This document shows, in pieces, positions 3,063 through 23,943 of a stretch of DNA of 31,864 nt. The notes beneath the pieces were generated by a model. The model was not told the origin of the DNA, did no database searches, and saw only the letters and a program-made list of their open reading frames with translations. How positions within the stretch are numbered: the stretch's first letter is position 1; the number at the start of each line of letters is the position of its first letter. This stretch comes from a virus: positions 1 to 31,864 of IMG/VR virus record IMGVR_UViG_3300032820_000064; one strand, 5' to 3'. A program made the translations under genes and the position numbers.

Positions 3063-4052
3063 TCAGGTGTTATCACCGATAGATGAGGATGACTCAATAC
3101 GTTGCATACATGCCTGCCGGAAAATACCCCATCCAGCAAGGTGATACCAGCCCACAGGGTTGAACCGACGCAGAGTATCAGTCACAGGACCGAATACGAT
3201 GCTTGGTTGCTCGCCAAAGCCTGGTGCACGGCTGAAAGCCTTTGCCAGAGCTTGACGACCACAAACAATGGTCTGGTAAACGTTGGTTGTACTGGTAGCA
3301 CCAGCATCATCCAATATGGGAGCCCGAGGGTTCTCAATATAGTTGATACCGTTGAACGTGCCGATCGAGCCTGCACGAACTGGTGCACCGTCTTGGTACA
3401 ACTGGTATTGGATAACGTCAGTTACCGCTGTTTCTCCACGAAGGTCATAGGAAACATCCGGGTGGATGATTGCCATATAGTTTCCGTTTTCCCAGCCGGG
3501 AGCGGAGTCGCCACGGAGTGAAGCTACTGCTTGACGGCCTTCCTGAGCGCCAAATGTTGCGGCGTCAGAAATACCGACACGGGACGTTGGGCGTGAGCCC
3601 GCTGATCCCTGAGCATAAATGACGTTAGTGCCAGCCATAATCACATTAGAAACAACTTTGTCGAGCGAATCGACCATGTTGTAACCAATAATGTTGGCGG
3701 CATCGGCATCAACATTCAAGAATGAAGTGCCTCGGATCAAAGCAGTCGTGATGACTGAGCTACCATACTCAGCCAAAGCAACATCTACTTTGGAGTCGGA
3801 GAGAGCAACAGGTGTAACGTCTGTCGCCTCAGTAAGTGTTCCGGTAACCTGAGCCATATTCGGATAGAACGTGAATTGCACAGTTGCCGCATTATGGCTC
3901 TGTGCAGTCGAACGAACATCCGCAACCATCTCATAGAGAGGTTGTGAACGTAAGGCAAAATAGGCGATCTGTTCGAACGCCGTAGTTACCTGGTTCGTTA
4001 ATTGACCAGTCCCGGTTGGGTTAGTTAAGGATAGAGGTGGTGTATAAGCCAC
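3063..4052 (-). CDS. Major capsid protein, N4-gp56/P22-coat-like family, 329 aa
   Basis: The N-terminal part has an aromatic-rich helix (FEQIAYFALRSQPLYEMVAD, about residues 27-46), a beta segment VQFTFYPNM with a following TLTEATDVTP loop near residues 60-85, and LAEYGSSVITTALIR (about 93-107), the arrangement of N4-gp56-type major capsid proteins with an HK97 fold. The length (329) is near the family norm. The start is a GTG with an AGGAC box six bases upstream. It directly follows the scaffold-like gene, the usual phage order. The pair has its own promoter candidate at 4669-4698, which fits the need for high expression of the shell protein. Confidence 0.85.
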   Translation of the reverse strand: MAYTPPLSLTNPTGTGQLTNQVTTAFEQIAYFALRSQPLYEMVADVRSTAQSHNAATVQFTFYPNMAQVTGTLTEATDVTPVALSDSKVDVALAEYGSSVITTALIRGTSFLNVDADAANIIGYNMVDSLDKVVSNVIMAGTNVIYAQGSAGSRPTSRVGISDAATFGAQEGRQAVASLRGDSAPGWENGNYMAIIHPDVSYDLRGETAVTDVIQYQLYQDGAPVRAGSIGTFNGINYIENPRAPILDDAGATSTTNVYQTIVCGRQALAKAFSRAPGFGEQPSIVFGPVTDTLRRFNPVGWYHLAGWGIFRQACMQRIESSSSIGDNT

Positions 4053-8272: not shown

Positions 8273-9624
8273 CAGACTCTAATTCCCATAATTTCAGCCA
8301 GCATCCCAGCGTCAACTAAATCTTCATTACTAGCAACATCTTCTGCATACTCTTCTTCAATACGTTCACCAAACATTGCCTGTATTTCAGTTTGGCTAAT
8401 GTTTCTCCGACCCATTGTTTCACGCTGAATGTCATCGGTCCACTTTGCGACAAGTGACCGGAACCGAGGATCATCACCACTCTTACCGGTGAGAGAAGCC
8501 ATAACTTGGGATGCGATAGCGTTACCGTAAGCGCTTCCGATCTGGATGACTGCACCAGCGTTCTTTGCTAACTCAAAGATTTGGTCAGAATAATCTTCTA
8601 CTGCTTGGGGATCAGAAACCTCTGGAACGAACTCATCGCCAAGCGTTTGGAATCCACCTTCTGTTACATCTGCAACCGACGCCGCATATTTCCTTAACTG
8701 GATAAATGCAAGACGCACATTTTCCTCGTCATAGATAGCGTCAGGATCGGTAAACATTCTGTCACCGATTGCAGAATACATATACGAAGTATTGCCAGTC
8801 CCCAAAGCTAATCCCTGGGCGATAAGACGCTGATTCTCAGCGGTTTGTCCCTTATAAATTCCGAAAGCATCGTTTACGGTAAACGGGACATCTTCGAGCA
8901 TCGCTGAACTGAAAGCCATACCCAACTCGCTTGGATCTTCCTTCCACCGCAGCGACATATAGTCTTCGCCCATTACCGACTGAAGAATCGGTGACTCAGG
9001 GCGAACCTCAAATATTTCTTCATCTCTAACACCGAGTTGACCTGCAAAGTCACGGGCTGCTATCTCACCAGGATCGACCGGACCTTCGGGAGCGCCCCAC
9101 TCGACCGGAACGAAGATAGCCCATTCTTCAGGTTTAATCTGTGCGTTGATATACGTATCGGGTACTAACGAACGTCCCGATCCTGTTGGGTCTGGAATAC
9201 GTTCTAAGGCAGTACGAGCTTCGCCACGTTCAGGAACGGGAATAACTCGTCCTTGAACATCTTTGGGAATGTCCTCAGGAGCGATTCCAGTTTCTTTCCA
9301 TTCTTCTGCTATGCGATCCGCTGCCGACGGAGTTAATTCAGCTTCTTCCTCAGCTTCGGCGTGCTCACGTTGAAGCTGAGGGATTATACCCTCGTTCCAC
9401 TGTGCCCAAAATCCATTGGGATCTTCTTCTATAAGTTCTTCCCGGCCTTCAAATGAGAGATTGTCCCAAAATTCCAGCAACCATACCTTTAACGATTCTT
9501 TGTCTTCCTCACTAATATCTGGGCGTTCGAAAACGACACCTTCACGAAAAATTCTAGAAAAAGTGCGACCGAGAAAACTTACTAATCGCTTATAGCCAGG
9601 AGTCCAGTCTTTATCGTCAGCCAT
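8272..9624 (-). CDS. Virion-block protein of unknown function, 450 aa
   Basis: A strongly acidic protein. The N-terminal 150 residues hold many Glu/Asp-rich helices (EEDPNGFWAQWNEG, HAEAEEEAEL), followed by a Pro-rich linker and a region with FVPVEWGAPEGPVDPGE. The C-terminal half (about 250-440) is helical and alanine-rich. No enzymatic motif, signal or membrane segment is evident. It overlaps its neighbours on both sides by a single base, which ties it to the giant upstream protein and the lysozyme-domain protein, most likely as a set of internal or ejection proteins made together. The family was not recognised. Confidence 0.6.
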   Translation of the reverse strand: MADDKDWTPGYKRLVSFLGRTFSRIFREGVVFERPDISEEDKESLKVWLLEFWDNLSFEGREELIEEDPNGFWAQWNEGIIPQLQREHAEAEEEAELTPSAADRIAEEWKETGIAPEDIPKDVQGRVIPVPERGEARTALERIPDPTGSGRSLVPDTYINAQIKPEEWAIFVPVEWGAPEGPVDPGEIAARDFAGQLGVRDEEIFEVRPESPILQSVMGEDYMSLRWKEDPSELGMAFSSAMLEDVPFTVNDAFGIYKGQTAENQRLIAQGLALGTGNTSYMYSAIGDRMFTDPDAIYDEENVRLAFIQLRKYAASVADVTEGGFQTLGDEFVPEVSDPQAVEDYSDQIFELAKNAGAVIQIGSAYGNAIASQVMASLTGKSGDDPRFRSLVAKWTDDIQRETMGRRNISQTEIQAMFGERIEEEYAEDVASNEDLVDAGMLAEIMGIRV

Positions 9625-12600
9625 TATGTTTCCCTTGAAGGAAGATTATTTACGGAAATTGTGTCCATGTTACTAAAATACCTGTCATATATAGAACCGA
9701 AGTCGGGCCAACTCAACACATGCAAAACCCAGACATCCCATTCTTGACGTAGATCTTGGTTCCCGGAGTAACTTAAACGCAGATAGTTGCGGTTATCCGA
9801 CGATTCGGCACGGCGAAGCATGTCGTATGCAATTTTGTCATGCATATTAATAAATTTCGCTATCTGAGGAGTCTCAGGTCGATATGCAAATTCGGGGTCA
9901 GAGAGAAGATCTCTAAACCCTTGCAGTACTTTGCGTTGGGTTTCTGGTTGCCCAAACGTGTTGAAATCTTCAAGCCATTGTGAGTTGCGACCCCCGAGAT
10001 CTTCGACAAAAGTTCGGCGTTGTTGCCACAAATCAAAGTTTGAGTTAGCCAACAGGCTTGATGAGCCTCCGCCCTGTGCTCTTAGTCGTAACTGGTTATC
10101 CATTGAGTTTCTGAACACTCGCCACTCACGCCAACCCATACTTCGAGATGCATCTGTAAGAATGCCGGACGGGTTCATGTAATCTCGGCGGCCTTCTCGT
10201 TCTTCAAGTTCCGCAACAGCACGGTTATATTTGAATTGAATGTCGATTGCGCCTACTTCGCCTTTAACAAACGCCGCTAATTCTGGGTGTTCGTCAATAA
10301 ACTCTTGATGTTTCTTATAGTTTGCGTGTCCTTCAAGAGTTCCGGCTCGCACTTGGTCTGCCATTGTGGTTCGGGCAGTAAACGCCCACAAATCTGGATG
10401 GTTTTCTAACAGCCATGCGTCAGCTATTTCAGGACTATGTTCTTCCTGTACTCGCCAAAACTCGGAGATAATTCCCCAGTAAGGTGACTGTTGCCGAAAC
10501 GAAACCGGGACAGCAATGGAACGCAGCATCCTAATTCCGTAGATTGCTTTAGTCCGACGTTCGACTTCGGCCTCAAAGTCGGCGTGCGCTTCGGGTGTAT
10601 CAGGTAGGTCAATGCCTTGCTCAGTGTATTGGGTAATCATGTCTTGGGTAACTCGGGCAGCAGTTTTAGCTCTACCCTCATCGGTCATACCAGCGGCTTT
10701 GGCCCCATTACGAACCCATGACGGTGTGTGAGCATTAAGAAAACGACGAGTAACATCTTCACCCTCAACAAATCCGTAAGGCAACATCCAACCAAGAGCG
10801 TCGTCAAATTCGGGGTTCTTTACGATAAGTTCTGAAGCACCGAAAGAAACAAGTGGCCCGAATCCTGGCAGCGCCCCAATCATTGAAGCCGACTTCAGGT
10901 TAAGATCAATATCTTCGTTTGCTAGATGCGAAAGTGGGCCAAATAGTTTCATACTGCCAATGGTTGCATCCATAAATTTAGGTACCTGGATAACAACTCT
11001 GGATTGACCGTTTTCGTCCTCGCCTGTTATCAGACCCCAGCCTCGTAGTGCACGTGAAACGAACACAGGGTTTTCGCCTGTAAGCCCAATCCAACGTGAC
11101 GCAACTTCTTGCCACGCCCCGAGGAATGGAAACAGTTCAGTAGCGATTTCTTCGAAGCGGGTTCGGTCGGCAAGTTCGTAGAGAATCTTTTTGGTTTCAG
11201 CAAGCGCATAGCGGCGTGCTCGCTGCGACATTTCTTGTATCGCATCACCGCTCACACGATATTTACCGTTAGGTAGACGGAATCGTTGCATCTCGATTGC
11301 CATCGCACGTTCGTAGGCTGCCTCAAACATGGTGCCACGTGAGAGTGTGTCTTCGACCATCGTCATATTTTCGAACCAGTTATCCGTCACTGTTCGAATT
11401 ATTTCTTTTGTTCGTTCAATCTGTGTCCCGGTTTTGAGCCCGTCGAGATATGACGAATCGGTTACGGTTTTGCCAAAGTCGATCATGGGAGTTACACGTT
11501 CCACAAATGCCGGATTATTTATGGCTTGAAGTCCGTCAGCGTCGATTTGGGCAGCGAAGTTTCGGATGCGCCCAATCATGGAAATTTCCTGCACTCGTGT
11601 AGCAGCTTTAGAAACCGCCCGGCTTCCGTGCAGATGAGCAGCTTCGTCAACGTGTTCGAGGACCGCTAAGGCGGTTACTTGACCGGCAGTAGTAGCTGAG
11701 GAAATATCGGCCATGTCTCCGCTTTTTATAGCGGCGGCGAGCATTTCGTCGCTTTCAGCGGCCATTCTGTCAACAACCGGCTGCATGTCACGAGCCCATC
11801 TGACATCATTGCCTCTAGCTAACTGTTGACGCACAACAGCAAATTCGGGAATATTAGGAACTAAACTATTAGCCTCGTAGCGGGTACGGCGGATCAGTTC
11901 CATGCGCCCTTCGGGAGTACGAAACTCTTCGGGAAGTTTACCGAGAACACGACGCCCGTCGGTACTTAACCACTCGAACACTTCGTCATCAGTGCGGCCT
12001 AGCCATTGTTGACGCCAGAAGTCACGCTCGGGAACCTGGCCTGCTGGACCAGGACTTGATGCGTGGTGGCCCATGAACTCGTCCCAGGCACGAACAAACG
12101 CTTCAGCTTCATATGCTAATTCGATATTATATTGGTGAGTTTGGTCCCACTGTTCGTTACGACGAACCGCAGCATTTGTGTCGGACCAGATCGTACGACG
12201 AGTCGGGTTTGCGCTATTAGACCGTTCAGTAATGGCCCGTATCTGAGGATTATCGCCCCACGCATTTGGGATCGCATTGGAGCCAAGCATTGACTGGCCG
12301 TAACCAATATCGCCCAAAAGTTCTGCGGCTTCATCAAAACGTCCGGCCAGTTCCGGGCTCTCTTTCCGAAAGTTTTCAACGACCATTCGTTGATACTCGG
12401 TGACGCCTTCGGAACGAGCCATCAACAATTTGGCTGCTTCATGTCGATCCCGTTTTGCTTGTCCGAGTACTTCGGCAAGCGTCGAGTCTTCACCCAACTT
12501 GGCAACTTCTTCGGGAGTCATCAAATTAAGGTCGATAACACTACGATCGTCAAGTCCTGCGAGCATTGCTCGTTCGGCTTGCTCAATTTCGTCAAGCATA

Positions 12601-15600
12601 TGTGAAGCGTCGAATAGTAATTGTTGGCCGTAACCTTCAGCGATCTGGCGTCGAACTAACAACACCTGACTTTTACGTGCATAAAGCGAGTACAGAGATC
12701 CTGCGGCTGCGGCTCCGACGGGGCCAGCGAAGAAAAGGCCTGCGCCTGTCATATATGCGGTGCGCCGGTGTTGGCGTCCTCTAGCGTATTCGTCCTTGAC
12801 GACACTTTCGAACAAATCGTTGTAACTGACTTCTGCGGTTTCGTTATATCGACGTACACGATCAACAAATGACATATCAGTAATATCTGTGCCTGCTCTA
12901 GTCAACACTTCGTCAACTTTTTGGAGAACAATACCTTGGACATCGGCTCCGGCACGTTGCAACCAGCGAGCACGAAGCGTATCCATCCGATTTCCAAAAC
13001 CGGCAAGGGATTCCATTACTCCAAGGTGTGCGAAGTTACGCAGCATGGAGTCAAGATTGACGACCATTTGCCAGCGTGGAGTGAGAAGAACTCCTCGTTT
13101 CCATGCGGTACTTATCATGCGTCGTGCTGCCATGACTTTGGCACGCTCGGCAGCGACACTAACTTTCTGAGGTCCGGTAGCTGTCGGAACAGTTTTGAGA
13201 TCTCCTTCAACCATCTTGACATAACGATCAAGTAGGTCATAGCGCGGAACAAGTTGTGCTTTACGCATCTGGCTGGGGCTAATAGGAATACGATTGACTA
13301 TCGTTTCACCTTTACTTTGTTCCCAGATAACCTCGGTATAGTCCACGTTTCCATAGCCACGAGCTATTTGTTCATCGGCGGCTTTATTAACAAGCTCTTT
13401 GGCATCGACGATTTGACCATTGAGAATTTGTCGGAGGTCCTTATCGGTTAGCTTTGCTATTTCGCCAGTAGTTTTATCGACAATCGGACCTAACTGTTCG
13501 ACAATCGTGTTATTGATTTTTTCTACAACGTCGTCGAAATGTTGTTGAAGTGCAATCTTGTCATCCGACTTATTGAGAAATTCTATGAGTACATCGTCTA
13601 CACTTAGACCGGCTACATCTAAAATATTTACACGACTAGCGTCAGGACGCCACGGGATTGTAGTGGCTTGTGGCGCTGCGATGCGTTCGACATCTCGTAG
13701 CATTCGTTCAACTTGGACATAGGCAAGGCTTGGTTGTTGTAGGTCGATAATGTTTTGGGCGACCTTTTCTACAACCATGCGGACAGCGTTGGTGCCCATT
13801 ATGTTGCGATATGTGCCTGACTTTTCAAAGAATGTTTTGGCTTTATAGCCGAGCCGATTCATTGGACCGAGATAGGGAAGTTGCTGGTCAATAAGCGGTG
13901 GAATATCATGCATTGACAAGATTTCGTCGGCTGCTGCTTTCACTACTCCGCCACCGATTTCTGTGGCATATTTATCGAGAATGAGGGGATTAGAGAAACC
14001 GTTTGGAGTTTCTTTTTTTAAGGTTTCGACGAGTAGATTCTTTAGTGACAGTGTTGCATTCCACGGCATGTTAGAAAGCTGCTGTAGGTCTGTCCACATG
14101 TCGTTAAATTCTGTAGTGCCAGGTTTCGGTGATGCGAAGCCGGGACTATCTATTGATCCAGCTAGCCCCCTGATTCCTGTTTCCCCTTCAGCTAATGCAT
14201 CTGAAACAACAGACATAACATTGTCCATAAGTTCAGGATTTTTGTTTAATAGTGCCTGTTGTTGTACCCCGAGTGCTTGTGCCTGTGCATCAAGATTGCT
14301 GACTTCTTCTAAATCGTTAGAGTTTTTGCTACGTCGTTCTAACTCACCGATTTCATTACCTAAACGTTTCATTTCGTCAAAGAGTGCTCGCCCACCACCG
14401 ATGTTGTCTATTTGGAACATGATCGCTGAGATCAATCGAGCTTGACGTTCGATAGCTGGGAATCCGCCTGGACCGGCTAACGCTAATTTGAATAGGTTGT
14501 CAAACGGCAACCAACTTGCATTAGTGACTGGTCCGTCGCCTACAACTTTGGCGACTGTGCGACCCCACGTATACATATCTTCGGCGGGTCGATCCCAGCC
14601 TCTACCGAGGCGTCCTTCTTTGCCTGCGTCGATAAATGCTTTCCCGAAGTTATCTTCGAAAACCGCTGGCGGCGCATCTCGCCCAACTTTTGTCCGGGTT
14701 TCTTCAGCTATGTTCCAGATCTGTTCACGAAAAACATCAAAGCCTTGACTGTTGATTACTTCGCTAATAGTGGGAGCTATTGGTTCGTCAAGGAACGTTG
14801 GCCGGTAACTCCAGTTTTCCCAAAACTCTTCGTCACGTAACCGTTGCTGACCTTTACGTGTGGGTTTCGCTGGCCGAAACTCGAATGGTGCGAGACTTGT
14901 TTGCAACATATTCGGGTCATAAACACCGGTCGCTTTGTAGGTTTCTTTGGCTCGCCGCATTGCGTAACCCCAGCGTGCACCTCTAGCGAGAAGATACGCA
15001 GGATCGAGCCCTATATTCATGGCGAAGTCAAAAACACCAGAGGTAACAAAATACCAGTTAGTCCCCTGAGCTTCCTGAAGGGCTTTGGGATCAAGAATAT
15101 CTACATGGAAAATGGATAACGCTAATGCTTGGCCTGCGCTTCGACTATTGGTTACGTCCCATGCTTGTTTATAGGTTTGGGCGTTGTAAAGTTTCGATTC
15201 GCCAGTCGGAATTAGCTGCTCGACAAGATTTATGCCACGCTCAAAAACACTGTCACCTTCTTGTATCGCTGAGGACACCATTCGCTCGACCGTAAACAAT
15301 GCCCCGACTGGGCGGTCAATAACATTTTTGTAGGCAAACTGCATACCCGTCATAAACGGATCCCAAATAAGTTGGCTGAACGGATCACGCACACGACCGG
15401 GTAGGGCACCTATTGGTGCACCGATTATGCCTTCAGGCCCAAGTAACGCACTTGCAACATTTTTTTCTCCGGTCCCAGTATCGGATTCCATACCCATGAT
15501 GTTGTCTTTCCAAGACTCGATCAGAGCATCTATGGGATTAACCTGTTTTACAGTATGCACCGCTGCGTCGAAAAAGAAATCGGCGGCTTGTGCTCCAAGG

Positions 15601-15647
15601 TCAAACGGAGCATCGACAATTTTGTCGAGGCGTTCGCTGAAACTCAT
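9624..15647 (-). CDS. Giant internal virion or DNA-ejection protein, 2007 aa
   Basis: The largest gene, about one fifth of the window. It is mainly helical throughout, with a predicted coiled coil near residues 420-470 (ELERRSKNSNDLEEVSNLDA). Near residues 960-990 is a Gly/Ala/Phe-rich hydrophobic stretch (GAGLFFAGPVGAAAAGSLYS) long enough to cross a membrane. A second apolar region lies near 1610-1640 (GALPGFGPLVSFGASEL). I found neither the T7-type RNA polymerase motifs of N4 virion polymerase nor a clear peptidase or transglycosylase motif. In podoviruses such proteins sit in the capsid core and form a channel during injection; this is inference from size, membrane-like segment and position. 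It starts four bases inside the 133-residue gene (ATGA) and ends in a one-base overlap with the 450-residue gene. Confidence 0.65.
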   Translation of the reverse strand: MSFSERLDKIVDAPFDLGAQAADFFFDAAVHTVKQVNPIDALIESWKDNIMGMESDTGTGEKNVASALLGPEGIIGAPIGALPGRVRDPFSQLIWDPFMTGMQFAYKNVIDRPVGALFTVERMVSSAIQEGDSVFERGINLVEQLIPTGESKLYNAQTYKQAWDVTNSRSAGQALALSIFHVDILDPKALQEAQGTNWYFVTSGVFDFAMNIGLDPAYLLARGARWGYAMRRAKETYKATGVYDPNMLQTSLAPFEFRPAKPTRKGQQRLRDEEFWENWSYRPTFLDEPIAPTISEVINSQGFDVFREQIWNIAEETRTKVGRDAPPAVFEDNFGKAFIDAGKEGRLGRGWDRPAEDMYTWGRTVAKVVGDGPVTNASWLPFDNLFKLALAGPGGFPAIERQARLISAIMFQIDNIGGGRALFDEMKRLGNEIGELERRSKNSNDLEEVSNLDAQAQALGVQQQALLNKNPELMDNVMSVVSDALAEGETGIRGLAGSIDSPGFASPKPGTTEFNDMWTDLQQLSNMPWNATLSLKNLLVETLKKETPNGFSNPLILDKYATEIGGGVVKAAADEILSMHDIPPLIDQQLPYLGPMNRLGYKAKTFFEKSGTYRNIMGTNAVRMVVEKVAQNIIDLQQPSLAYVQVERMLRDVERIAAPQATTIPWRPDASRVNILDVAGLSVDDVLIEFLNKSDDKIALQQHFDDVVEKINNTIVEQLGPIVDKTTGEIAKLTDKDLRQILNGQIVDAKELVNKAADEQIARGYGNVDYTEVIWEQSKGETIVNRIPISPSQMRKAQLVPRYDLLDRYVKMVEGDLKTVPTATGPQKVSVAAERAKVMAARRMISTAWKRGVLLTPRWQMVVNLDSMLRNFAHLGVMESLAGFGNRMDTLRARWLQRAGADVQGIVLQKVDEVLTRAGTDITDMSFVDRVRRYNETAEVSYNDLFESVVKDEYARGRQHRRTAYMTGAGLFFAGPVGAAAAGSLYSLYARKSQVLLVRRQIAEGYGQQLLFDASHMLDEIEQAERAMLAGLDDRSVIDLNLMTPEEVAKLGEDSTLAEVLGQAKRDRHEAAKLLMARSEGVTEYQRMVVENFRKESPELAGRFDEAAELLGDIGYGQSMLGSNAIPNAWGDNPQIRAITERSNSANPTRRTIWSDTNAAVRRNEQWDQTHQYNIELAYEAEAFVRAWDEFMGHHASSPGPAGQVPERDFWRQQWLGRTDDEVFEWLSTDGRRVLGKLPEEFRTPEGRMELIRRTRYEANSLVPNIPEFAVVRQQLARGNDVRWARDMQPVVDRMAAESDEMLAAAIKSGDMADISSATTAGQVTALAVLEHVDEAAHLHGSRAVSKAATRVQEISMIGRIRNFAAQIDADGLQAINNPAFVERVTPMIDFGKTVTDSSYLDGLKTGTQIERTKEIIRTVTDNWFENMTMVEDTLSRGTMFEAAYERAMAIEMQRFRLPNGKYRVSGDAIQEMSQRARRYALAETKKILYELADRTRFEEIATELFPFLGAWQEVASRWIGLTGENPVFVSRALRGWGLITGEDENGQSRVVIQVPKFMDATIGSMKLFGPLSHLANEDIDLNLKSASMIGALPGFGPLVSFGASELIVKNPEFDDALGWMLPYGFVEGEDVTRRFLNAHTPSWVRNGAKAAGMTDEGRAKTAARVTQDMITQYTEQGIDLPDTPEAHADFEAEVERRTKAIYGIRMLRSIAVPVSFRQQSPYWGIISEFWRVQEEHSPEIADAWLLENHPDLWAFTARTTMADQVRAGTLEGHANYKKHQEFIDEHPELAAFVKGEVGAIDIQFKYNRAVAELEEREGRRDYMNPSGILTDASRSMGWREWRVFRNSMDNQLRLRAQGGGSSSLLANSNFDLWQQRRTFVEDLGGRNSQWLEDFNTFGQPETQRKVLQGFRDLLSDPEFAYRPETPQIAKFINMHDKIAYDMLRRAESSDNRNYLRLSYSGNQDLRQEWDVWVLHVLSWPDFGSIYDRYFSNMDTISVNNLPSRET

Positions 15648-17807: not shown

Positions 17808-19730
17808 TTACCTCACCGACATTTCTGATGCACTGGAAACCCATGTGGGTCGCCACTGACGATTGTTGATTATACTCGGAGTATAGAGCTTCTCTAAGTT
17901 ATGCTCTAGGAACCATTCTGCCATAACACAGTCGTCTGTGCGTGAACCCGTACCTTCGGGATTCCATCGGGTTACTTCGTTAATCAATAAAAGCGAATGG
18001 GGTCTTGCTTCGGTGTTATGTTTGCCCGGCAAACGCACTCTGCCAACACGCCATAACGGCGCAAGCATCTGCACTCCGTACTTGGGATCACCTTTGTTAC
18101 GTGAATGCGTATAGTGCGGAACAAGTTGGACATTTCTTAATGCTGCCCATCGTCTAAAATGATCGTATTGTAAAATAAACTTTTGTGCAGCATTCGCTTC
18201 GATAATCCAATGAGTGATTGGGTGCCCTATATCGTTACTTATTTGCCACCAATCTTCAGCTACTCCTGAGAATGACTGAGTTTCGTGGCTCCAGTCAAGA
18301 AACGCTGGGGCATCCATCTTCCGACGATATGATTCTAACAAATATCGGAACTCGGTTTCAGGGTTATAGGCCCAGCATTGGATTGCCCAATAGTTTGCGG
18401 GTGACGGGTCGGCGGTAGCGACAATGAACAGGTCGTCAGAAATTCCGTTGGGTAGTTCCCACAGATCTCTGTCGTTGTCCCAACATCCGGGGTGGAATAC
18501 GCCATCTTCGCCTTCGCCGCCACTCACCCACAACGGATCGACGAGAACATTGGCAGGGTTTACGTCTGATTGTTGGTAGAGAACTTCGAATCGGTCTGGG
18601 GTTTGGGCTTTGATGTGTCGGAGTCGTCGCCACGGGAGTCTACGAGGGTAAAGTAGGCACCCTTCGGGCCACGGTGCGGCGTCAGGTTTGTGATCGCCTT
18701 TACAAAGTTCGTCATGGTGCGCTTTATATTTGAGATGATGATATTTTCGCCATTCTTCTGGTGCGTCTTCTGGATCGAATTCGTCGAGTTCGAACTCGTC
18801 GGGGGGCGCAACCTTATCAAGTGCGTATCGGTAAATGTCGTCAGCGGACATTCGCTGTCCTTGTAATACGAGTAGTCCGCCAGGTTCGAGCCTGGTTTCC
18901 GCAACTTCATCCCACCATCTTCGCATATCCTCACGTGCTTCGCCGGAACGCATCTTCCGTGGGTCGTATACGTCGTCCCAGATCACTAAATCGAAACGGC
19001 CACCCAAGAAACCGGAGTCCATGCCAAACGCAGACCATGTGGGTTCTTTCTGGGAGAGTGGTACGTCATCTTTTTGTAGAACGGTGAACGCTTCGGCACG
19101 CCAAATCTCTGAGGAGTCTGGTTTGAACATTCCGAAGTCTTCCATCAGCGTTGCTTCAGCATCGACAGCAAGTTTGAGTCGCACATCGTTCAATTCGGCT
19201 CTGACTGGGTGCACTCGATCAAGTTCTGCACGCAATCTACGGGCATACCACTCTGATAGGCGTTGTGTGGACGATCCGATCATTCCACGGATGGCCCGAT
19301 TACGGACAGTTGCCCAAGCTGGAAGAACTTTCGCAAAAAATGTTGACTTTCCGGTGCCCGGTGGGGCGTTTATTACAACGTATTCTTCGAATTCGGTTGT
19401 GAGGAGCCCCATTATTTGTTCGGTGGCTTCTATCTGCCAGGGTTGGAGCACAATCCCGAAATATCTTTTAGCAAAAATTGTGATGTCGTCGTATGCTGCT
19501 TGGGCTTCGGGAATAAGGTCTTCGTAAGCTGGAACTTCTGGTTGAATAGTTTTACCGAGAGCTTCTTGGGCGACAAGGAAGTTGCGTGGGGCTTTGCCGC
19601 CTTCCGCATCTCGACATGCATGATACGAAAGCCCACATTCCTTGGCCGAAGAGTACAAAGAATGGCCTTGGCGTCGAAACGCCAAATAGTCGGCCCATTT
19701 TTCTACTGTTGTTGCTTTGCCTGATGGCAT
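17808..19730 (-). CDS. Terminase large subunit, 640 aa, with N-terminal helix-turn-helix
   Basis: The ATP-driven packaging motor and nuclease. Walker A is APPGTGKST at residues 122-130, Walker B is LVIWDD at 248-253, and LVLQGQR near 288-293 is the coupling (C) motif. The RNase H-like nuclease starts at IVATADPSPANYWA, with Asp441 as first metal ligand, and later acidic residues lie near TDDC (about 603-606). Residues about 16-43 (RQGHSLYSSAKECGLSYHAC) look like a helix-turn-helix, a DNA-binding function usually supplied by a separate small terminase. No small terminase gene is recognised upstream, so recognition of the packaging site could be built into this protein (inference). It follows the Cys-rich gene after nine bases and precedes the portal. 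Confidence 0.92.
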   Translation of the reverse strand: MPSGKATTVEKWADYLAFRRQGHSLYSSAKECGLSYHACRDAEGGKAPRNFLVAQEALGKTIQPEVPAYEDLIPEAQAAYDDITIFAKRYFGIVLQPWQIEATEQIMGLLTTEFEEYVVINAPPGTGKSTFFAKVLPAWATVRNRAIRGMIGSSTQRLSEWYARRLRAELDRVHPVRAELNDVRLKLAVDAEATLMEDFGMFKPDSSEIWRAEAFTVLQKDDVPLSQKEPTWSAFGMDSGFLGGRFDLVIWDDVYDPRKMRSGEAREDMRRWWDEVAETRLEPGGLLVLQGQRMSADDIYRYALDKVAPPDEFELDEFDPEDAPEEWRKYHHLKYKAHHDELCKGDHKPDAAPWPEGCLLYPRRLPWRRLRHIKAQTPDRFEVLYQQSDVNPANVLVDPLWVSGGEGEDGVFHPGCWDNDRDLWELPNGISDDLFIVATADPSPANYWAIQCWAYNPETEFRYLLESYRRKMDAPAFLDWSHETQSFSGVAEDWWQISNDIGHPITHWIIEANAAQKFILQYDHFRRWAALRNVQLVPHYTHSRNKGDPKYGVQMLAPLWRVGRVRLPGKHNTEARPHSLLLINEVTRWNPEGTGSRTDDCVMAEWFLEHNLEKLYTPSIINNRQWRPTWVSSASEMSVR

Positions 19731-20754: not shown

Positions 20755-20952
20755 TCAATCTCTCAATGACGGAAACTTAGCATGTACCGCTGAACGCACC
20801 CTTCTTTTCTCTGCTGCCGATCCATGTTGAGACACACGAGCTAATGCATTACGAGCATGAGGAAGATCGTTAATGGGATATTTGCGTGTACCCCGATACA
20901 CAAAAGCGCTATCAGGTAACGCATTACGTTTCTTCGAAGTTAATTTAGCCAC
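20755..20952 (-). CDS. Small basic conserved protein, DUF6582-like, 65 aa
   Basis: The sequence opens MAKLTSKKRNALPDSAFVY, continues with RKYPINDLPHARNALARVSQ and ends RSAVHAKFPSL. This is the pattern of a short basic protein family found in many phages and some bacterial genomes (KRxALPxSxF, YPIxDxxHARNALARVSQHG). The family function is not established. A helix-rich DNA- or virion-binding protein is possible. It is second in the leftward transcript and precedes the two small membrane proteins. Confidence 0.8.
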   Translation of the reverse strand: MAKLTSKKRNALPDSAFVYRGTRKYPINDLPHARNALARVSQHGSAAEKRRVRSAVHAKFPSLRD

Positions 20953-20959
20953 TAACTAT

Positions 20960-21094
20960 TCAAGAAGCCGACGGTTGCCCATCATTAATACGTGACTGAT
21001 TACCGTCACCACGCATCAACCGATAAATATGGTCAGTAGCCGCCTGCTGAGCAGCAATACGTTCTTGTTCTGACTTATCAGTTCGTTCAACCAT
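20960..21094 (-). CDS. First leftward gene, 44-aa hypothetical protein
   Basis: The ATG at 21094 is preceded by TTTTGGAG at proper distance. The product is hydrophilic and helical (ERIAAQQAATDHIYRLMRGD) with a polar tail. A longer upstream reading frame exists, but its N-terminal part has the composition of non-coding sequence. It lies eight bases before the DUF6582-like gene and is probably the first gene after the leftward promoter. No function is recognised. Confidence 0.55.
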   Translation of the reverse strand: MVERTDKSEQERIAAQQAATDHIYRLMRGDGNQSRINDGQPSAS

Positions 21095-21137
21095 CAAAAA
21101 ACTCCAAAAGGACAACAAAGGGAACAAACAAGATGTT

Positions 21138-21165
21138 ACACTACCAACACACCCGCCGCTAACAA
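21138..21165 (-). promoter_or_regulatory. Leftward promoter candidate for the late block
   Basis: On the minus strand TTGTTA (21165-21160) and TAGTGT (21143-21138) are 16 bp apart, and TGG directly before the -10 gives an extended -10 (TGnTAnnnT). It would start about 35-40 nt before the first leftward gene. The match is modest. Confidence 0.33.
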
Positions 21166-21329
21166 CGGTCCGATCGCCCGTCAGAGGGGCATCTGATTCC
21201 GTGTCCAGACACGACGGCCCCACAAAACAGGGGGGCACGGAACGACCAACACAGAGCGGTTAGGTCAACGGCAAGAGCGGCCACAAACACTCGGAGGGCC
21301 AGGGCAAAAACCACCCACACCCCAAACCA

Positions 21330-21359
21330 TTGAACCAAACCCCCCAAAACAACGATAAT
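21330..21359 (+). promoter_or_regulatory. Rightward promoter candidate for the structured RNA module
   Basis: TTGAAC (21330-21335) and GATAAT (21354-21359) are separated by 18 bp. Transcription would begin near 21366, about 100 nt before the first stem of the structured region. This is sequence match only. Confidence 0.38.
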
Positions 21360-21468
21360 CATATGTATTAGGAGGGGAGTCTCGGCACATCCCCCCCTGT
21401 CCGAGAAAACAAACACACCAAACCACCCCCCGTCCCCCTGACTATTGTTTGGGGGGGGGATATGCCTT

Positions 21469-22123
21469 CGCCCTTCGGGTGGTGTGTACGGCAGGGCAGC
21501 GGCGAGCGCTGCTTTGTACCTGCCTCGGTTTAGGGACAGGGCTAACGATTAACGAGCGGCTTGGGGCCGCAATCGACAGGCACCGCTGGTGCGGTGCATT
21601 TCTGTCGAGACGTGGACGCCGAGATCACGGCTCTGCGCCGTGATTGCCCAAGCAGAGCTTGGCTCTTGCTGGGGTTCTCAGTGTCGTCACTTCCACTCTC
21701 GATGCCTCGCCGCTGATTGCTGGAAGTGTAGGTGGTGTAAGCGGCGAGTCACTTCTACGCATTGAACGTAGAAGCTAGAACCTCCGGCCTTCGGGACCGG
21801 AGGTCGAGAGCACCCTAAATTAGAATCGTGACGCAACTGATGATTCTAATTTGCCCCGACGCCGGGGCCGGGTGTCATAAATTTCCATCGCCGTCGGCGA
21901 TACGGGAAATTGATGATGGATTAGGCACACCGATGTGCACTGCGTCAAGAGAACCTCGGCCCAACCGAGGGCCGCCCGCCCACATCAGAGATGTGTCAGT
22001 TCTGTTACGAAGAAACCCGTTTCGTAACACAACTGATTCGGCGGCTTCGCTTCGCTTGGGATCTTGACCCACCGCACATCGGCGTGCCTCTGCGACACTT
22101 AACTGAGTGGAGGAACTCCGCTC
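21469..22123 (+). ncRNA. Large ornate structured RNA candidate (about 650 nt)
   Basis: The stretch has no convincing gene but is filled with perfect or near-perfect stems. Arms are at 21490-21495/21519-21524 enclosing 21496-21501/21507-21512; 21556-21560/21566-21570; 21573-21579/21602-21608 enclosing 21580-21586/21591-21597; 21624-21631/21637-21644; 21648-21653/21657-21662; 21752-21759/21767-21774; 21780-21789/21794-21804 with a cUUCGg tetraloop and an A bulge; 21817-21827/21842-21852; 21853-21858/21863-21868; 21880-21886/21905-21911 enclosing 21887-21892/21896-21901; 21954-21959/21965-21970; 21981-21986/21990-21995; 22003-22011/22021-22029; 22105-22112/22116-22123. A pseudoknot lies at 21688-21748. 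The UUCG loop and G-U pairs favour the plus strand. Size, density and phage setting recall the giant RNAs GOLLD and ROOL, which are known from phages and prophages. Whether this is one of them, or new, cannot be told by eye. Confidence 0.72.
21688..21748 (+). other. Predicted H-type pseudoknot inside the structured RNA
   Basis: CACTTCCA (21688-21695) can pair with TGGAAGTG (21721-21728), and CTCGCCGCT (21706-21714) with AGCGGCGAG (21740-21748). The two perfect stems of 8 and 9 bp cross each other, which defines a pseudoknot, unless they are alternatives of a switch. Confidence 0.6.
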
Positions 22124-22137
22124 CAACGAAAAGGAAA

Positions 22138-22875
22138 ATGAAAGTCATGTCAACATCCAATAGCAATACGAAAACAAAAGTGCAATCCATCCACACCGGC
22201 GAAATGGTCGATGCACCAGCAGATGCCGGGCATAACAGCGTCCATGCCACGGAGAGTCATTGGCTTGATGCGCTCAAATCAGCATGGGAGGATCTGGACA
22301 ACAGCCAACCCGGAAAGGTCATCTACTTCTACATTGGCGACAATCCGCCACTGCATGACGACAGGGCAATCCTCAACATAATGAGCGACTGGGGCAAAAG
22401 CAAGGTAGCACAGTCCGAGGTGACGGAAACACAAGCGCACTTCAATGACACCTACCTCTTCCCAGTACTAGAACAAGCGCATTGGGCAGGGGTCCACAAG
22501 TTGAGCAGCAAAGGTTCGAAAGACTCGATAGACCGAGGCTTCCGTGCACGTGACGACGCCAACTATGGCCGCTGCGTGTTCATCATCAAGTACGACTGGA
22601 CCGACGGGCCACGCTACTACGAGGTGCACATGCTAAAGAGTGGCGTCAAAAAGGACGGTCGTTACCGGGTTGAAAGACTTGCACAACTTGACGCCGATTG
22701 GACCGAAGAGCGTTCAAGGACTCGTCGCCGCCAGTACCTAGTGATCAATGACTACCAATGGAAGATCATCGAGCCGACATTGGCACAGGAACGTGCGGAC
22801 AAAATCGAGAACTACGAAAACGACGAGAACGTCAGTGGCGAGGCGGGAGCGGCAGCGCCGAGCGACTGGAGCTAA
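22138..22875 (+). CDS. Orphan protein of unknown function, 245 aa
   Basis: The ATG at 22138 follows AAAAGGAAA. Frames open further upstream run through the hairpins of the structured RNA and are rejected as N-terminal extensions. The first 35 residues are Ser/Thr/Lys-rich. The core (about 38-205) mixes helices and strands (KVIYFYIGDNPP, CVFIIKYDWTDGPRYYEVHM), and the end is acidic and disordered. No known domain is recognised. Codons end in C much more often than in the next gene, suggesting a different origin. Lying between the structured RNA and an intrinsic terminator, it probably shares one transcript with the RNA, so a protein partner of the RNA is a reasonable but untested idea. Confidence 0.72.
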   Translation: MKVMSTSNSNTKTKVQSIHTGEMVDAPADAGHNSVHATESHWLDALKSAWEDLDNSQPGKVIYFYIGDNPPLHDDRAILNIMSDWGKSKVAQSEVTETQAHFNDTYLFPVLEQAHWAGVHKLSSKGSKDSIDRGFRARDDANYGRCVFIIKYDWTDGPRYYEVHMLKSGVKKDGRYRVERLAQLDADWTEERSRTRRRQYLVINDYQWKIIEPTLAQERADKIENYENDENVSGEAGAAAPSDWS

Positions 22876-22890
22876 CACACCGAAAAGAAG

Positions 22891-22930
22891 GGGAGTCAGG
22901 CGTGCTGGTCACGCTTGGCTCCCTTTTTTT
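22891..22930 (+). terminator. Strong Rho-independent terminator
   Basis: A 14-bp stem pairs 22891-22904 with 22910-22923 (two G-U wobbles), with a 5-nt loop, followed directly by seven T (22924-22930). It lies 15 nt after the stop of the 245-residue gene and closes the structured RNA transcript. Confidence 0.9.
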
Positions 22931-23034
22931 GGTCGACTTACCCAAGGTTACAACGAAGGGCACTGGAGACCCCCCTCCTCCCCTTCCCATAGCCGTCGAA
23001 CTGCTACACAACCTAAAAGAAATGGAATGAAGTA

Positions 23035-23943
23035 ATGGTTACACCAACTGTGAATGATATCCAAATGCAGTTTACTGATTTGAAACTGTATGCCCGTAAC
23101 TTGATTGAGTTAATGGATGTGCGTGTGTCTTATGAGAATAGGGTGCATATGTCTGCGATGAATGACCCTTTGATTGGGGGTGGGGAGAAGATTAGTAAGA
23201 AAGATCCTCGTTTCGTTGCTCTTCTACATGATGTGGGGGTTCTTAATCCCACTGAGGAGGACATTGCGGAGGCGAAGATTAGTTCTTCGTTCACTGGGAT
23301 TTGTAGAAGCGAAAAGAAAACAGAGAAGGTGTTGATTAAGAAAATGGTGACAGCATTCTCAGGGGATCATGTCACTGAGTTTCTTGGGACTGTTGGTATT
23401 GGTGATAAAGGTATTGCTCGTCTTGCTGGAGAGATTGGGCATCCGTGTCTTGCGTTTCCTCATCATTGGGAACCGAATCCGAAATGGAAAGAGGGAAGTA
23501 AGACTGAGAAGAAACGGATTCTTGTAGCGGATGAATACTTTGTGCGTAATGTTGGGAAGTTGTGGTCATATTGTGGGGTTGGTGATTCGACTAGGAAAAG
23601 AGCGAAAGGTATGTCACCGGAGGAAGCCACAGCATTGGGGAATCCTAGAGCGAAAGCTCTTGTTTATGTGATAGCGAGTAACACTATGATGATGGAAGGC
23701 AATCCAAATAAGAATGGGGTTGTTAGACCTCGTTCGCCTTACCGTGATGTTTACGATGAAGCTCGTGTCGTTTATGATCAACGAGATTGGACGCCTCAAC
23801 ATAGTATGAATGCTGCACTTCGTAAGGTAGGTAAAACAATACTCCGAGATTTTTGGGTAGCTGCACGTGATGATCTGGTAGATCTTGGTGTACTGGAGTT
23901 GAGTCCCGCACCGCAACAGAAAAAGATGTTGGTAGCTGCCTAA
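23035..23943 (+). CDS. IS110-like transposase C-terminal-domain protein, 302 aa
   Basis: The N-terminal 110 residues are helical. Near residues 110-135 GTVGIGDKGIARLAGEIGH is a helix-hairpin-helix. After this come LWSYCGVGDSTRKRAKG (about 175-195), GNPRAKALVYVIASNT (about 202-217) and a C-terminal helix with RKVGKTILRDFW. The order PGIG-like hairpin, (A/Y)xG(L/V), GNxRxK, closing helix is that of the C-terminal half of IS110-family transposases (Transposase_20), whose catalytic Ser lies in this half; Ser185 is in the right neighbourhood. The N-terminal RuvC-like DEDD domain is absent, so it should not transpose like IS110. A DNA- or RNA-binding role is likelier. It follows the terminator and ends six bases before the hairpin array. 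The resemblance is by eye and moderate. Confidence 0.5.
   Translation: MVTPTVNDIQMQFTDLKLYARNLIELMDVRVSYENRVHMSAMNDPLIGGGEKISKKDPRFVALLHDVGVLNPTEEDIAEAKISSSFTGICRSEKKTEKVLIKKMVTAFSGDHVTEFLGTVGIGDKGIARLAGEIGHPCLAFPHHWEPNPKWKEGSKTEKKRILVADEYFVRNVGKLWSYCGVGDSTRKRAKGMSPEEATALGNPRAKALVYVIASNTMMMEGNPNKNGVVRPRSPYRDVYDEARVVYDQRDWTPQHSMNAALRKVGKTILRDFWVAARDDLVDLGVLELSPAPQQKKMLVAA

Follow-up and report, generated by a model that had tools for sequence, protein, structure and literature searches.

What is encoded by a stretch of about 650 nt, at positions 21469-22123 of a marine phage sequence, that folds extensively and carries no credible gene? The stretch belongs to a 31.9-kb viral record (IMGVR_UViG_3300032820_000064), called here the window and analysed over its whole length of 31,864 nucleotides. 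It is intergenic, lying between leftward structural genes, among them a terminase (17808-19730) and a major head protein (3063-4052), and rightward replication-type genes for an SSB, a Cas4-like nuclease and a RusA-like resolvase. At the right end of the window, a DNA polymerase exonuclease gene points leftward. An initial annotation of this DNA had proposed a large ornate phage RNA, either a divergent GOLLD or ROOL member or a new class. Of these alternatives the new class survives, and to it can be added that the locus is exchangeable and occupied by several unrelated structured regions, this RNA being one of them. Its fold is evolutionarily maintained and noncoding, and the RNA is linked to the downstream gene gpA in a conserved transcription-unit context and exchanged as part of a cassette.

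Relatives of the terminase occur in many metagenomic virus contigs, while in cultured phages there are distant matches only (about 28% identity), and blastn against cultured phages returned no match. Two of the related loci, L077 and L079, lie on one 65-kb contig (IMGVR_UViG_3300025400_000015) that has two terminase copies and is perhaps a concatemer or a chimera. Within the window, a leftward ORF of 2007 aa spans 9624-15647 of this 32-kb phage contig.

Folding and coding content of the region

The minimum free energy of 21440-22140 is -335.4 kcal/mol on the plus strand (z -10.5 versus shuffled sequence) and -320.7 kcal/mol on the minus strand (z -12.6). Sliding 200-nt windows starting at 21400-21900 gave z values of -2.8 to -5.6, compared with a mean of -0.27 (sd 1.12) for 28 windows elsewhere, and this low-z stretch matches the extent that had been assigned from inspection of the letters. 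The only other outlier nearby in the scan is the terminator after gpA (z -3.9). The predicted fold contains 29 helices of at least four pairs, bearing out the many stems initially described. Of the two stems singled out at that time, both the cUUCGg-capped one (21780-21804) and the one with G-U pairs (21491-21517) are present in the window's predicted fold, but the latter is missing from the homologues. The region is also GC-rich, as had been remarked, with 58.3% GC versus 48.5% for the window.

Two short ORFs of 64 and 79 aa lie inside the region, and the homologues carry indels across both whose lengths are not multiples of three, so there is no conserved reading frame and a protein-coding reading of 21469-22123 was dropped. 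The initial view that the region has no credible gene therefore stands, as does the absence of a neighbouring tRNA, neither the window nor any of 17 related loci containing one.

Architecture, homologues and transcription unit

The predicted features of the locus are as follows.

21140-21320, no strand assigned: separate, highly conserved noncoding element (20 distinct related sequences; covarying 7-bp stem)
21330-21359, plus strand: candidate sigma70-like rightward promoter, TTGAAC-18-GATAAT (consensus scan and conservation)
21436-21460, plus strand: GACTA box, then a G run, bordering the structured region on its left (GACTA or GACTT follows soon after the conserved block in most listed loci)
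21469-21675, plus strand: 5' domain of the structured RNA (MFE folds, alignment, and the L004 and L083 sequences)
21678-22107, plus strand: 3' domain, common to all homologues (independent folds of the window, L003, L081, L004 and L083 agree)
21693-21920, plus strand: multibranch, covarying half of the 3' domain, comprising helices P2-P9 and covered by model R1 (compensatory pairs and held-out model test)
21923-22089, plus strand: helix P10 (21923-21938 with 22074-22089) and its arm (21941-22071)
22105-22123, plus strand: last hairpin, just 5' of the Shine-Dalgarno-like AAAAGG of gpA (a G-C pair becomes A-U in L003 and L081)
22138-22875, plus strand: gpA, a protein of 245 aa whose relatives always adjoin this RNA
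22891-22930, plus strand: intrinsic terminator, a stem-loop and T run 3' of gpA

Homologues of the window's region (family A) were collected through terminase relatives (L003, L041, L004) and a DNA pattern (L081, L083); searches with gpA recovered the same set plus a partial sequence, L087, and two further DNA patterns yielded no additional members. Family A has just six sequences of sufficient completeness for comparison, including one near-duplicate pair (L003 and L041). The 3' domain is closed by a long-range helix, P1 (21680-21687 with 22092-22099, or alternatively CTCAGT at 21678-21683 with ACTGAG at 22102-22107), that, in the window, reaches across more than 400 nt. Inside P1, five sequences folded singly share a multibranch half, P2-P9, and P10 bearing an arm of P11-P15.

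In a sequence-only MAFFT alignment of 21693-21920 with four homologues, 11 of 66 consensus pairs changed on both sides with pairing kept, no pair changed on just one side, and pairing held in 94.6% of cells; with identical rows counted once there are four distinct rows, so that these changes represent few events by lineage but are spread over eight helices. In 500 shuffles, neither the observed count of both-side changes nor the observed covariation score was reached, and 0-2 pairs were seen in slid controls. Additionally, a covariance model built without L083 found this held-out sequence with 63 bits (E 1e-15). With compensatory changes abundant and no frame conserved, the proposal of a large ornate phage RNA holds up.

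The remainder of the RNA evolves unevenly. P10 is rewritten in L004 and L083 with pairing retained: its strands in the window are AGGCACACCGATGTGC and GCACATCGGCGTGCCT, and those of L004 are unrelated but complementary (TGCCATGTGG.../...CCACATGGCA). The arm at 21941-22071 is nearly invariant in sequence, although identity in gpA is down to 28-31% for L004 and L083. The 5' domain, with hairpins at 21491-21517, 21519-21540, 21556-21570, 21573-21608, 21623-21645 and 21646-21675, is variable, another folded domain taking its place in L004 and partly in L083. In L083, a 5' domain of the L004 type is combined with hairpins of the window type, indicating modular exchange within the RNA.

The match of the promoter to consensus is itself at chance frequency, and the element is kept in nearly all relatives in the form nTGAAC-18/19-(GATAnn/TATAAC/TATATC), with TCGGCA 21-23 nt downstream. 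It sits at the right end of the conserved block, whose element at 21140-21320 has stem variants TTCCGTG/CACGGAA (window), CTCCGTG/CACGGAG, CTCTATG/CATAGAG and CCTCGTA/TACGAGG, matches no Rfam family and might serve the leftward genes as a leader or act as a regulatory site. At the other end, each gpA relative found has the RNA beside it, or what is left of the RNA where the contig ends. No match to gpA was found in Pfam or PHROGs, single-sequence searches returned no close relatives of gpA or of the next gene, and the gpA structure model is too poor for use (mean pLDDT 45.5). The terminator was found in all four relatives checked, its stem altered yet intact in L004 and L083. Since the conserved promoter-like element, the RNA, gpA with its Shine-Dalgarno-like AAAAGG and the terminator stand in succession, they are predicted to be one self-contained unit. 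Directly after this unit, a gene at 23035-23943 matches PHROG 4285, whose transposase label is doubtful here given the early-gene setting.

Cassette exchange among related phages

An ORF-less structured stretch of about 330-990 nt is present at this site in 17 of 17 phages compared, the window's included. On both strands of these loci the z values, rough because each is based on 16 shuffles, range from -2.5 to -14.5, and those of coding controls from ten loci range from -4.3 to +0.3. The 17 loci form groups, between which there is no detectable sequence similarity beyond short stretches. Three further families show compensatory change on the plus strand, with 31 both-side changes in family B (L012/L044), 37 in D (L007/L039) and 12 in E (L022/L026) against 1-6 in slid controls; the signal in family C is less clear. 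Model R1, run on 45 loci, had no match in any other family, and families B-E are thus not detectably homologous to family A. By comparison of these sequences, the locus is hypervariable, exchanging cassettes and occupied by several unrelated structured regions.

The exchange can be followed most closely in L091, whose late genes match the window at 94% identity (14.7-20.7 kb) and in which a different structured region and different genes (L091 830-3707) replace the whole RNA-gpA cassette. L091 1941-2546 and matching genes in L029, L040 and L042 encode another shared protein (MAETKAEILGNEIVNY... type) after the structured region. In these four loci, a distinct predicted structured region is paired with a distinct partner gene. 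L091 is also the sole genome match, in a MAG labelled Gammaproteobacteria; its placement there may be a binning accident, and for this reason no host is claimed.

These related phages, differing in structured RNA and partner gene at one locus, amount to a natural experiment, and the role of such RNAs may therefore be approached by comparing or swapping cassettes. Tentatively, one phage lineage might maintain a dedicated early locus with a constant promoter, into which ready-made cassettes of unrelated large structured RNAs and their own partner genes are swapped as an RNA-based arsenal against hosts or rival phages.

Candidate function and alternative readings

Taken as a whole, the best explanation, to which a probability of about 0.4 is assigned, is an early plus-strand RNA-protein unit acting with gpA and possibly directed at the host. 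Rightward transcription from the promoter at 21330-21359 would produce a structured noncoding RNA of about 650-760 nt as the first part of the unit, and this RNA would function by itself as a folded molecule. gpA would probably bind it through the nearly invariant arm, and the unit would act on a host target that changes fast, at an early stage of infection. If the target does change in this way, the replacement of the entire cassette by unrelated structured RNAs in related phages would be accounted for. Against a partnership of RNA and gpA, their linkage could reflect mere proximity to the gpA ribosome-binding site.

In a possible, if doubtful, reading the region is a cis-acting 5' leader, a long structured UTR of gpA and the early operon that controls translation, stability or transcription in the manner of the put RNA of HK022 or of attenuators, with no free RNA. 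No terminator is seen between the RNA and gpA, the last hairpin stops about 15 nt before the gpA start and the two always co-occur, as a leader would have it; however, the size and the long-range closed architecture go beyond the needs of known leaders, and the best-conserved part is an internal arm far from the start codon, kept while gpA falls to about 30% identity. The choice of strand bears on a further reading. The plus strand is probably the transcribed one, being favoured by the conserved promoter-like element, co-linear gpA and the terminator. Among the family-A relatives, this strand has more unpaired A than unpaired T; the window lacks this excess, as do some of the other families. 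Summed over families, the plus strand carries about 12 interior A.C mismatches to 3 G.T, which leans to the minus strand if anything, where A.C becomes G.U; this imbalance may stem from the composition of the unpaired bases. In families A, C, D and E the consensus energies slightly favour the minus strand, and wobble, loop composition and tetraloops give conflicting results as strand indicators. The initial argument for the plus strand from the tetraloop and the G-U stem is weak, because counts of wobble pairs across all the families give plus no advantage. A leftward minus-strand RNA, serving as a leader or as antisense to the rightward operon, draws on these mismatches and energies and is nonetheless unlikely, as it requires a promoter within or near the gpA start, where the consensus scan shows none, and has to contend with the rightward promoter-like element before the region and the unpaired A of the relatives.

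The near-equal folding of both strands also fits a DNA-level element, such as a replication origin or recombination hotspot whose hairpins form as single-stranded DNA or cruciforms, as do helices that are almost purely Watson-Crick, a position that separates divergent modules and is close to a local minimum of GC skew, and the exchange of cassettes at the site. Such an element would hardly account for the maintenance of helices spanning more than 400 nt and of a nested multibranch architecture, and the folds at this site differ among related phages; we know of no dsDNA-phage origin of this form, and the reading is considered quite improbable. The RNA-protein unit is preferred over each of these alternatives.

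To our knowledge, there are few large ornate phage RNAs such as GOLLD and ROOL, and no function is known for any of them. GOLLD often, although not obligatorily, lies near tRNA genes and forms a homo-oligomeric nanocage. At gathering score, neither the window nor the 17 related loci matched any Rfam family. The GOLLD, ROOL, OLE and HEARO models, suggested as a check at the outset, were run with no match in the window, and GOLLD and ROOL were not reported even at E≤10 within 20950-23050. Weak SAM-riboswitch, isrC and mir matches at E≤10 were discarded as noise; mir-5391 had matched the terminator hairpin. Size, phage location and a conserved 3' with a variable 5' part recall GOLLD, whose 3' region is conserved and 5' region less so and whose function is unknown, and ROOL, an ornate phage-encoded RNA of about 660 nt with unproven function (PMC12286853). 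The shared 3'/5' pattern is an analogy only; the lack of a covariance-model match and of nearby tRNAs sets the present RNA apart from both, the linked gene gpA distinguishes it from GOLLD, and the suggestion of a divergent GOLLD or ROOL member is very unlikely to be correct. With a fold conserved by compensatory change, no coding content and no matching Rfam family, the RNA appears to represent a new class among large structured phage RNAs, adding one supported by covariation to the few described; no description of this locus was found in the open-licence literature.

Two further RNAs resemble it in part. The put RNA of HK022 is a structured leader of about 70 nt at the start of an early transcript, a position predicted here as well, whereas the present RNA is ten times larger and multibranched. 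An 800-nt noncoding transcript of phage ICP1, likened to GOLLD and ROOL by its own authors, arises from about 1 kb of ORF-less phage space away from tRNAs (PMC7567579), a setting like that of the window; expression of the ICP1 transcript has been shown.
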